This document shows, in pieces, positions 6,601 to 56,040 of a stretch of 64,000 bases of DNA. The notes beneath the pieces were generated by a model. That model was not told the origin of the DNA, searched no databases, and worked only from the letters and a program-made list of their open reading frames with translations. Where the stretch lies: contig CM049306.1 of the NCBI GenBank assembly GCA_026874595.1, forward strand, positions 39,990,019 to 40,054,018. Reading direction: 5' to 3'. Position numbers and translations under genes: made by a program. The DNA comes from Sipunculus nudus. Lineage: Eukaryota > Annelida > Sipuncula > Golfingiida > Sipunculidae. Each line of letters opens with the position of its first letter. Within the stretch, counting starts at the first letter, position 1.

Positions 6601-8920
6601 GCAGGTATCTTAAAAAATTTAGCCATGTTCAGACGTCAAGTGCCAGTGACCCCAGTTGGAAGGCAGGTGCATGCTGTGAGGACAATTAACAAAATAATGG
6701 ATTTCTCCAAAATATAGGGATCACATGTATTACAATTTTTTCCAAATGTTTATTTATAGAAATGATGATCAGAATCTTGCTTCTCAGGAAATGAGGCCTT
6801 TATAGTCATTAAAGAAGGAGTGGTACAAAGAGACCAAAGGCTCTCTTAAAGTAGGCAGAATGATCAAGCATTTCCTGCAGACTTGTATGGAATCTTGGAA
6901 TGAACCTGTTTATTCTGATAGCAGTTTCACAGATAACAGTTTCATAGCAGATAACAGTTTCATAGCTTTTCATAAACACAACCAAGCCGTCTATGACTAT
7001 TTATCTATGTACAAAGAAACCTGATTATGGACATGTACAGGCAAGATTTGTTCCATAATAGTTAGGCCCCTATCATAGATAATTGATAAGGTAATTGCCT
7101 GCCTGAGATTACTTTTCATGGAACCACTGTAATAAAAATCTGCATTCATACCCTCCAGAAACTTTTCATAATTTAATAGACTTTTTCCACAAGCATGCAC
7201 ACCTCCCATAACGGTCATCACAAATTTTGTCAAATGAAATAAAATACAAACATGAAACGGTGGAAGGGGCATCACTGGTAAAGATAAGATATGTTTGTTA
7301 CTATAGATCATCTAAAATATAACAAAAAACAGTCTTTTTGTCAATATAAAGCACCTGAAAATTTGTCGTCAATTCTTGCCAACAGGTGTCACAAGTGTGA
7401 TGGGAAAGGTCTGTTTAATGTATTAAGTATAGGAGTAAATTTTAATTCATAATTTTCTTTATTTTAGGTTCACTACCTGTTTGGTGGGAATCCAGGTAAA
7501 GACAGTTTGCCCAAAATGAGATTGGATGATTTCTGGTCTTTAAAGGTATGCTTCCAGGAAATTAAATTATAAAAGAAGTGATTCTTTGCAACCCAATCAA
7601 ATTTCCATCAGATCAGAATACTGTCAAGTTAAATTCATTTATTTTCTCAGATCTGTACAAGGTAAAGAAATTAAACTCTCCTTGTTTCTGGTAGAGCAAT
7701 TTGTATAATTATTTAACTTTTATATTTATAAAGCTCTCAGTCAAGCTCTCTCTTTAATAAAATTTTTTTTTTAGTCAGTCATGTTTGTTTGCTATTGTTA
7801 TTTATTTAGTTTTATGAATTGTGACATGAGTGGTGTTTCTGTTTCAGCTTTGTCGTCCATCAACTCAACACTTATTGAGGAGGTGCAGGTATCTAATAAG
7901 GAAACATCGCTTCCAAGAGATAGCTGCAAGTGATCCAGTGACAGCGTTGACATATCTGCAGACATCTTTAGCTGAAACTGTCAATCACTCAGACACAGAA
8001 GAGACAAAAGAGGTGACAAAATCAATCCCAAATATCACCACTTATTCTTTGCATGATACCACTGTTGAATTGTAATAAGAAAATAAACTTATTTAATCAG
8101 TCCTATTAGCTCATCATCATTTGTCATGATCACATTTAGTGCCCTCCTTATGCAGTGGTTGTACTCTGCAATCATACCACATCTCAGTCTTTTTAACCAC
8201 TGCTTGTTTTAGCCTGCTTTGCTAGGTTTCATCCCCAGGTACTGGCACAGGGCCAAGAATTGTAATCATACCAAGTTTTAAACCTGGAAGACTACAGATT
8301 TTACTGGCACATTTAATTTTATTTTATTAATGTTTTTGCAGGTGTAGCATAACATACAGAATAACATGGTATTTAAACATTTGCTGTGTTTCCTTTCAGT
8401 TCCAGCTGCTGGCCACGACACTGTTCAGAAGTGAAGGAGACGATGAAGAAACAACATCAGCTGGTGAGTCAGAGTTTGTTCCTTGACAAAGGCCCAGTGA
8501 TACTACCATCAATTAATATATAGAAAGATTACATACACAGTCAGCAGAGTCATGTCACTCATCATTTGTTTAAGTAACTTGTACAGGTCAGCCCTGACAG
8601 ATCATTCCATGGTAGAGTTTAACACCTTCATTTTGTTCACCTCAGGGGCTCAGTTTCTAGCTACAGTAGAGCATATTACCCACCATTTGCTGGATGAAAC
8701 TTTTTTGAGTTATGACAAAAAGGCTAAAAGACACTCTTATACTTTTGCCTTGTTTGCGTAACAATTCCAAATCAGTACATGTTTCCTTTGTGTTTCAGAT
8801 ACAAAAGCTGGTGAGCATTATTTGAGTCGTACACAGCTTTTTGACTGCTTGGTCAGCTACTTTCCTGATGATATGACGCAGCCCAAAGGTAACCTGGTGG
8901 ACCTGATCACGCTCGTATGA
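3531..8920 (+). CDS. MKLN1: muskelin, C-terminal nine coding exons (gene continues upstream of the window)
   Basis: Muskelin is an intracellular kelch-repeat protein and a subunit of the CTLH/GID E3 ubiquitin ligase. Nine exons (3531-3675, 4458-4587, 5094-5161, 5823-5899, 6339-6450, 7468-7545, 7848-8012, 8400-8463, 8799-8920) join with consistent phases and GT-AG borders into about 320 residues ending in TGA at 8918-8920. The order matches the C-terminal 40-45% of animal muskelins (about 735 aa): kelch blades ([65 protein letters not shown]), then the muskelin-specific tail ([22 protein letters not shown]) and the conserved end NLVDLITL. The N-terminal discoidin-like, LisH and CTLH parts must lie before base 1. 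A decayed copy of the last exons lies at 39.5-43.8 kb. Confidence 0.95.
3676..4457 (+). other. muskelin intron with short direct repeats
   Basis: Between about 3850 and 4020 a block of about 70 bp (ACTGTACTCAGTGACTCA-type) is repeated with divergence. Nothing else was recognised in this 782-bp intron. Confidence 0.6.
4458..4587 (+). CDS. MKLN1: muskelin exon: kelch blade [13 protein letters not shown]
   Basis: The acceptor is TTTGCAG and the donor is GTACTC. It encodes [20 protein letters not shown] and continues to [12 protein letters not shown]. It ends in phase 1. The DGTKKD motif is characteristic of muskelins. Confidence 0.94.
4588..5093 (+). other. muskelin intron
   Basis: AT-rich intron of 506 bp; nothing recognisable was seen. 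Confidence 0.6.
5094..5161 (+). CDS. MKLN1: muskelin exon: [19 protein letters not shown]
   Basis: A 68-bp exon between TTTCAG and GTGAGT. It carries the nearly invariant muskelin motif [19 protein letters not shown]. Confidence 0.95.
5162..5822 (+). other. muskelin intron
   Basis: AT-rich intron of 661 bp; no element was recognised. Confidence 0.6.
5823..5899 (+). CDS. MKLN1: muskelin exon: [20 protein letters not shown]
   Basis: Acceptor TTTTCAG, donor GTAAGT. It encodes the next kelch segment ([13 protein letters not shown]) and ends in phase 2. The split Trp codon is completed by the next exon. Confidence 0.94.
5900..6338 (+). other. muskelin intron with a 38-bp tandem duplication
   Basis: The block starting TTTTGTATTAAAATCTGTTC occurs twice back to back between about 6148 and 6225. 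Nothing else was seen. Confidence 0.6.
6339..6450 (+). CDS. MKLN1: muskelin exon: [10 protein letters not shown]
   Basis: Acceptor TTTCCAG, donor GTCAGT. It encodes [17 protein letters not shown] and then [16 protein letters not shown], matching the vertebrate [16 protein letters not shown] blade. Confidence 0.94.
6451..7467 (+). other. muskelin intron containing the left edge of the segmental duplication
   Basis: From about 7170 on, the sequence (CCATAACGGTCATC, ACTATAGATCATCT, CTTTTTGTC) has a diverged counterpart from about 39260. Before that no counterpart was found, so the duplicated unit begins in this intron. Confidence 0.65.
7468..7545 (+). CDS. MKLN1: muskelin exon: [10 protein letters not shown]
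   Basis: 26 codons in phase 0 between TTTTAG and GTATGC. It contains the last kelch blade [21 protein letters not shown] copy with a 5-bp deletion lies at 39539-39611. Confidence 0.95.
7848..8012 (+). CDS. MKLN1: muskelin exon: [12 protein letters not shown]
   Basis: 55 codons in phase 0 between GTTTCAG and GTGACA. It encodes [20 protein letters not shown] and ends [10 protein letters not shown], the conserved post-kelch helical region. A copy with one codon missing lies at 43175-43336. Confidence 0.95.
8400..8463 (+). CDS. MKLN1: muskelin exon: FQLLATTLF
   Basis: 64 bp between TTTCAG and GTGAGT. It encodes [20 protein letters not shown], an acidic linker, and ends in phase 1. In the downstream copy (43743-43806) both splice sites are mutated. 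Confidence 0.9.
8799..8920 (+). CDS. MKLN1: muskelin terminal exon with stop codon
   Basis: Acceptor TGTTTCAG. It encodes [20 protein letters not shown] followed by [20 protein letters not shown] and TGA. The ending matches vertebrate muskelin plus one extra Val. The downstream duplicate has lost this exon. Confidence 0.95.
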
Positions 8921-54389: not shown

Positions 54390-56040
54390 TAGTCGTGCTG
54401 TGGCCAAAATAAGGCAGGGGGTCCATAGGTTGAAGATGACCCGTGTACAGGGTCGAATAAAGAGTTAGAGGTAGATGTGGGTGCGAGTTAGAGGGGGTCC
54501 ATGTTTTACCGAGGCCCCGAAACAACAGGGACCAGGTGCGAAGAAGGGCAGTGTGGGATAGGAGGGGCCCATGCATGGTGTATAGTTTAACTTTTAGAAA
54601 AAAACTGTGATGGAGCAATCTGGAGTAGAAGAAATGTGGTTTATGGGATGTCTTAGGGTATTGACCAGGTATAAAATTCTATTCCCCAGACTTTAGGTAG
54701 AAAAGCAACTGGCGTGCTTCCCCTGCATCCCCCTTCCCGATCCACCCCCTGTGGGTGACCTTCCAATATGTGAGATAACGTTCTCTGAAATGATATCCCG
54801 GTAGTTTCAAGGGCAGAAGTATCTGCAGTGACTTTCTAGTTCAGTGACTTTTTCTTGATGGGCTAGCTCATGTGTCGGTGGTTATCTCGCTCGGAAACGC
54901 CCTCTGTTTTGGACCAAGTCACTTTAGTTTCGCTCGTTTTAGAAATAATTACGTGCCATGCAGTCTACTGTCCAATGGATATTTATAAGCACAAAACCTT
55001 GTGTAGACTTAAATACCTAAGTTGACCTGAGTACAAAGACCATTTTCTTCTTCACCTTCATTCTTTCATTTTTTTCTTCTTCATTTTTGGTGGTTATTGG
55101 AATCCCCTTTTCAAAATCTTTGATCTGTCCCTGCAAAACCTGAGAGGTAGGAGCGTAAATCTATATCGGACCATTCGTGATATTGTCCATGAACATATGA
55201 AATTAGAGCAACACCAACGCCATGGCTTTTTTCTCGGCGAATGACTTCTGTTTTGTTGACACATGCATAATTGTCTAGTTAGTAAATACCAGCAGTGTAT
55301 TTGATTTTACAGAACAATATGTCACGCCAATGTTCAGTCGTGGATAAAATTGCCTTGGGTTTGGAAATCTTCATGGATATATCTGTTCCTTAGCCATAGC
55401 TTTTCATACGCTGAAACAGAGGCCTACGCTTGACACAATGTTTTCAACGCGTGAGCGATATCTCAAGCATCACTGGGCCCCTCCCACTGTCATCTAACCG
55501 TACTTCACACTAATTTATTGCTTTCAAAAATTTAATGAAAACCTAATTACTATATCAAAATTTAGGCTAACCCTTGGACCTGTTTGCTCTCTTGATGATG
55601 CTGTTATAATTACTTAAGTGTTAGCCATTTGCATTTTCGATGCTATTTTATGTTGCATTTTTGGCTAAAATTTTAACCAAAATTGAAAGACAGAGCTGCC
55701 TACCACCCCTCTTTCTCTATAAGTGAAATGACCCATTAACGCCCCTATGATAATGTAGACTGTCCTTGGAGTCGGGGCATCGGGAACCTGATCACTTGGT
55801 CTCTGGCGCCTTAATGTGGCCCCTATCCAGCCGTTGGTGAAATATAGATAGTTAAATGGCGCATATGCCTGCTTCTCATATGACGGCACTTATTTAGTTT
55901 AAGTCATAGTGCTGTGCTAATGAGCGAAGCCTAAACGTTAAATTCGACATAAGCGGAATTAAACAGTTTGGTAGTACTGGACGTGATTCTACATCTCTTC
56001 AATTTTACGTTTAACCAAAAGACTGTCAGTATTGCATACC
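54390..56040. other. right end of duplicated unit B
   Basis: It matches 36130-39090 in pieces (GGACCAAGTCACTTTAGTTT with GGACCAAGTCACATTATCTT; TTTGGTAGTACTGGACGTGATT). The seven-unit TGACCTTTGA array and the retrotransposon of unit A are missing here. Confidence 0.7.

Follow-up and report, generated by a model that had tools for sequence, protein, structure and literature searches.

The review by Katju 2012 (PMC3449122) puts the share of partial duplicates at 21% (or perhaps some 38%) among young gene pairs of C. elegans, at 53% among those of D. pseudoobscura, at 63% in mutation-accumulation lines of C. elegans, and at 76% among duplication variants of D. melanogaster. Here we describe a tandem duplication in the sipunculan Sipunculus nudus, found in a window of 64,000 nucleotides (the whole stretch of DNA that was analyzed: GenBank assembly GCA_026874595.1, contig CM049306.1, positions 39,990,019 to 40,054,018 of the forward strand; coordinates below count from its first base), in which the 3' end of a muskelin gene and a neighboring gene for a protein with FG-GAP repeats are each present in two adjacent units, the left one designated A and the right one B (Table 1). 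The locus shares with the small tandem duplications treated in that source a copy made at the DNA level, with one gene complete and one cut, and differs from them in being old (synonymous divergence, dS, 0.25) and in that the complete copy was constrained before it apparently broke. We consider it very probable that this is an ordinary old tandem segmental duplication in which muskelin was cut within an intron, its tail has become a relic in unit B, and the FG-GAP gene of unit B, unless its two indels are consensus errors, was first kept and then broken, by its look recently. The locus shows cleanly, at one place, how a single duplication can lead to different outcomes, decay for a bystander fragment and, for a complete copy, selection followed by apparent breakage, and annotators of the region might mistake the relic for another muskelin gene; otherwise it is ordinary genome evolution. 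A narrow literature search on muskelin with tandem duplication, and on FG-GAP, muskelin and tandem arrangement together, brought up no description of this locus; a paper that contains both "muskelin" and "tandem duplication" deals, to judge from its title, with poplar WD40 proteins, and the others were unrelated by title.

The preliminary description of this DNA had claimed two units in one order and on one strand, and had proposed a dot plot as the check. Self-comparison of the window yields such a diagonal, same-strand and collinear from 7216/39298 to 39108/56037 (A/B), and no third copy of the unit. In a focused comparison of unit A with unit B, all 12 blocks with an expect value (E) of at most 1e-5 lie on the same strand and in a single order, while no match was obtained in any of 30 dinucleotide shuffles of A or with A reversed. 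At E ≤ 1, 16 of 31 same-strand matches are collinear; the 15 that lie off the chain comprise 1 trivial self-overlap, 1 repeat-like match, and a remainder that is weak or falls at simple repeats. The minus-strand matches at this threshold number ten and include a pair resembling short interspersed nuclear elements (SINEs) and a repeat at 47.3-47.4 kb. The refined edges are close to those first given, and the interpretation as a tandem segmental duplication holds up on the shared order, strand, introns, and spacer and on the adjacency of the units.

Both units contain all six FG-GAP exons and the TATA-like stretch, as had been described. The claim that they also have more than 1.5 kb of spacer in common stands insofar as about 1.9 kb of B (54.12-56.04 kb) carries matching blocks; it is doubtful in the middle of this spacer, where six sliding windows starting at A 38380-38746 have 44-53% identity and are not clearly homologous. 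A Kimura two-parameter distance (K80) of 0.54 for the last spacer block was dropped because the middle of the block is not clearly homologous. Since introns and spacer are common to the units, the copying must have taken place at the DNA level, and retroposition was rejected on the shared introns.

Divergence between the units is far greater outside the exons than within them. Non-coding sequence in the 12 blocks is 75.4% identical, that is, 24.6% different, with a K80 of 0.30 (3859 sites), against an exon K80 of 0.10; FG-GAP coding sites are 90.9% identical (1258 sites) and muskelin exon sites 91.0% (299 sites). These figures come from BLAST-supported blocks only, a choice that favors better-conserved parts and leans identity upward, so non-coding sequence has probably diverged further than these values show. 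Haplotig errors can occur in the assemblies of outbred animals, and unit B, which lies next to A, might be a misassembled second allele of it, the case that the preliminary description had held against itself. A non-coding difference of this size is far above the divergence expected between two alleles of one locus; in addition, the terminal muskelin exon and five upstream muskelin pieces are without credible match in B, and large stretches on both sides are unmatched. We therefore rejected misassembly on divergence and regard it as exceedingly improbable. With non-coding sequence about 75% identical and exons 91%, unit B is an old paralogous copy and not an allele.

The window begins within the muskelin gene, which runs on the plus strand. 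Exon translations at 4464-8914 align to the C terminus of muskelin in PDB entry 8ttq (residues 488-582 and 598-755, E 8.1e-109), and one more piece was recognized by eye at 3559-3675. All nine muskelin exon pieces read open, each in one frame, and unit A holds the last four coding exons, all intact. Muskelin exons and flanking introns had been reported in both units, which is so for three of the four last coding exons and not for the terminal one: in B this exon has only chance-level, out-of-order matches (E 0.56 at 42.9 kb and 0.78 at 50.3 kb), and no likeness appears when alignment is forced where the exon should lie. Unit B thus has only a broken C-terminal piece of the protein seen in 8ttq. 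Since none of the five muskelin pieces upstream of unit A (3.56-6.45 kb) is credibly matched in B, the left edge of A lies in the intron that separates the muskelin exons at 6400 and 7468, in agreement with the claim that the edge cuts an intron and that only the last exons were copied. By its disrupted frame and splice sites and its incompleteness, the muskelin tail in B is a pseudogene, and we read it as a bystander relic. It is presumably without a promoter, since it lacks the upstream exons, and would have decayed as a bystander to the rest of the segment.

The FG-GAP gene of unit A is convergent to muskelin and intact, with six exons, 1263 open coding nucleotides, 420 residues, and five introns that are all GT-AG. 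Its counterpart in B retains the start, the stop, and all ten intron ends, yet has frameshifts in this assembly of −4 in exon 2 and −1 in exon 4, with no other coding lesion; read in the frame of A, its sole stop is the shared last one (418 of 421 codons compared, the other 3 touching indels). As assembled, both gene copies in unit B are broken, a point absent from the preliminary description. Over 417 codons, the pair has a non-synonymous divergence (dN) of 0.059 and a dS of 0.251, giving a dN/dS of 0.233 (95% interval 0.157-0.334), and none of 1000 bootstraps reaches 0.5; for exons 2-6 the ratio is 0.195 (0.120-0.310).

If FG-GAP B had been dead since the duplication, which its two present frameshifts might suggest, it should have accumulated many more changes. 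With B free and A fully conserved, at least about 112 non-synonymous changes would be expected, against 54.5 seen (P 9e-10), and B free throughout would give 12.2 gap events over 1258 coding sites, against 2 seen (P 4e-4). The observed ratio and gap count are not those of neutral evolution throughout, and we hold an early death of the gene to be very improbable. A free B branch would give a dN of about half of dS, or 0.125, and the observed value is 0.059, so the free period can amount to at most about half of the history of B, and we infer that it was shorter still if A also accepted changes. On the best reading, selection maintained FG-GAP B as a second gene over at least about half of its existence before the gene was lost, unless both indels are consensus errors.

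Whether the two frameshifts are real bears directly on the fate of this gene. If they were consensus errors or a segregating null allele, FG-GAP B would be a working gene, as its low dN/dS, its preserved start, stop, and intron ends, and the lack of any further coding lesion would suit. By eye, a TTTT run marks the site of the −1, and the −4 has taken away one GATA unit of a pair; both are slippage- or error-prone contexts. Two lesions in one gene, on the other hand, fit decay, and indel errors are not generally frequent in the assembly, since FG-GAP A is open over its whole length and all nine muskelin pieces are open. We therefore treat a working FG-GAP B as possible, though not probable. 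Exon skipping would be no rescue: exon 2 (243 nt in A) is skippable in frame, but skipping exon 4 (149 nt) breaks it. A more elaborate and improbable variant would make FG-GAP B a second gene under selection that grew apart from A, most of all in exon 1; it would now segregate as a null or still yield protein, and the 84% identical spacer segment upstream (Table 1) would be a control element common to both genes, which the insertion of a retrotransposon has moved away from gene A alone.

Several observations weigh against an old tandem duplication with one tail decaying freely and one gene kept and later broken. In two exons of the muskelin relic we count 12.5 non-synonymous changes, where a free copy should have 18.5-24.3 (P 0.12 to 0.009, depending on the neutral rate), and the relic may have been under some early constraint. 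In the FG-GAP pair, exon 1 is the most diverged (dN 0.10), and its dN/dS alone is 0.325, with an interval (0.173-0.669) that takes in 0.5. Gene conversion could also lower exon divergence and, if it came from A, mimic constraint, but it would have had to spare the introns, where FG-GAP intron windows have 53-79% identity. At the edges, the breakpoints are eroded and the junction between the units holds unmatched filler. A 23-base match sets the left edge at about 7197/39246; it is weak, with an E of 0.001 when the search space is small and 0.066 when the left 39 kb are searched. Part of the left block, 7272-7410, is a repeat that also occurs inverted at 9052-9187. The right edge falls in spacer, and its last block (38862-39108/55772-56037, 70.6% identical) may be a dispersed repeat, because 55742-56032 at the right end of B also matches 28114-28386 in intron 1 of FG-GAP A on the same strand (60.7% identical, E 2e-10); the unit A copy of the block has no match to 28.1-28.4 kb at E ≤ 0.01. 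Without this block, the right edge would lie at 38371/55320. Finally, what by eye looks like sequence of a long interspersed nuclear element (LINE) adjoins unit B on its right.

The state of the edges raises the question of how much DNA was originally copied. If the segment had been longer, with more of muskelin included and the edges later trimmed by deletions or insertions, this would account for the 136 bp of unmatched junction, for the likely LINE sequence past 56.06 kb (seen by eye, with no Pfam support), and for the terminal muskelin exon also not being found in B. We think this rather unlikely, as the five muskelin pieces at 3.56-6.45 kb have left no credible trace elsewhere in the window. 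When the origin of the junction was sought in the flanks and the rest of the window, the best match was 34 bases to 8861-8894 (E 0.025), and the best match of the outer flanks with each other was 50 bases and inverted (E 0.003). Returning to a tandem duplication that began within the muskelin intron, a single unequal exchange or an error of replication or repair would have duplicated the DNA from that intron through the end of muskelin, the convergent FG-GAP gene together with its promoter region, and spacer on the far side. End-joining is weakly favored over homologous exchange because the junction is unmatched and the edges share no long repeat.

Table 1. Coordinates of the duplicated units and of features within them (window positions).
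Feature	Position	Strand	Remarks
Unit A	about 7196-39108		31.9 kb
Unit B	about 39245-56037		16.8 kb
Junction between units	39109-39244		136 bp; no convincing match elsewhere in the window
Muskelin VHYLFGG exon, first in unit A	7468-7545	+	intact
Muskelin exon LCRPS..EETKE	7848-8012	+	intact
Muskelin exon FQLLA..TTSA	8400-8463	+	intact; donor GTGAGT
Muskelin terminal coding exon	8799-8920	+	stop read by eye; no counterpart found in B
Relic of VHYLFGG exon, unit B	39539-39611	+	5-base deletion; AAG to TAG in the frame of A
Relic of LCRPS exon, unit B	43175-43336	+	one codon missing, otherwise open
Relic of FQLLA exon, unit B	43744-43807	+	acceptor TTTCAG to TTTCGG; donor GTGAGT to GAGAGT
FG-GAP gene A	18550-29515	-	exons 29515-29218, 26071-25829, 25664-25438, 20325-20177, 19314-19204, 18784-18550
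FG-GAP gene B	45534-53907	-	exons 53907-53610, 48926-48688, 47833-47607, 47072-46925, 46311-46201, 45768-45534
LTR retrotransposon, unit A only	30745-35836	-	744-bp long terminal repeats (LTRs), 100% identical; TG..CA ends; (TA)n on both sides
Extra stretch, unit B	39714-42974		3.3 kb; splits a muskelin intron; absent from A at that place
Spacer segment, unit A	36538-36744		84% identical to 54749-54957 (B); found nowhere else in the window

Unit A had been described as larger mostly through insertions. This is borne out for an LTR retrotransposon that makes up 5.1 of the 15.1 kb of difference in size, and the extra length of A stems in part from its later insertion; the remainder of the difference is unpolarized, and B has an extra stretch of its own (Table 1). 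The LTR element is much younger than the duplication, since its LTRs are identical and it is present in A only, between (TA)n runs. It is flanked by a repeat whose copies, at 30353-30531 and 35837-36017, are 88% identical, as if its target had been the second copy within a small tandem repeat of greater age, with (TA)n. In one of its frames, an Integrase_H2C2 match at 270-325 lies ahead of RNase H at 473-579, and this placement of the integrase zinc finger ahead of RNase H is one that we take to be the Gmr1-like order. The two frames that were scanned gave no Pfam match to a reverse-transcriptase core or an integrase core at E ≤ 0.1, unlike Gmr1-like elements, and by its sequence it looks like a recent, internally deleted insertion. 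Its gag, which matches SCAN (PF02023, 38.4 bits), is a further point in common with Gmr1-like Ty3/gypsy elements, which are named as the source of the SCAN domain in PMC3406341. Near the ends of the extra stretch in B are inverted arms (40052-40306 and 42466-42704, 69% identical), and the stretch is perhaps a decayed transposon.

As for the protein encoded by FG-GAP A, a hand-joined version of 417 residues has one FG-GAP_3 repeat (PF13517) above the curated cut-off (31.0 vs. 26.9 bits), with PF01839 falling below its own (20.5 vs. 22.1 bits). Motifs of the form D-x-D-G-D-G can be seen by eye, as in other FG-GAP repeat proteins of PF13517, and its start looks, again by eye, like a signal peptide. 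Its best match among solved structures is at chance level (E 0.49), a pattern scan for relatives in a prokaryote genome collection returned 30 stretches with none confirmed, and NCBIfam gave one match below cut-off.

Other repeats are spread through the window. Frames resembling LINE endonuclease or reverse transcriptase were picked out by eye at 56060-57834 (+), 58682-59305 (−), and 49518-51037 (−); a Pfam scan of them gave no reverse-transcriptase match. Upstream of the first muskelin piece lie tandem arrays at 2-1043 and 1266-2070, with periods of 346 and 274 bases and about 3 copies each. Self-comparison places two further repeats within A that have no match in B, a minisatellite at 12862-13310 (some 15 copies of a 29-base unit), which lies between the muskelin and FG-GAP A genes, and a local repeat family with copies 67-79% identical that occurs twice, at 36758-37999 and 23008-23833. 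The SINE-like pair, 49185-49511 (+) and 21316-21612 (−), is 72% identical and sits at non-matching positions of the two units; a tRNA-like stretch at 49190-49261, which scores 33.2 bits against the Rfam tRNA model, opens the copy at 49185-49511.

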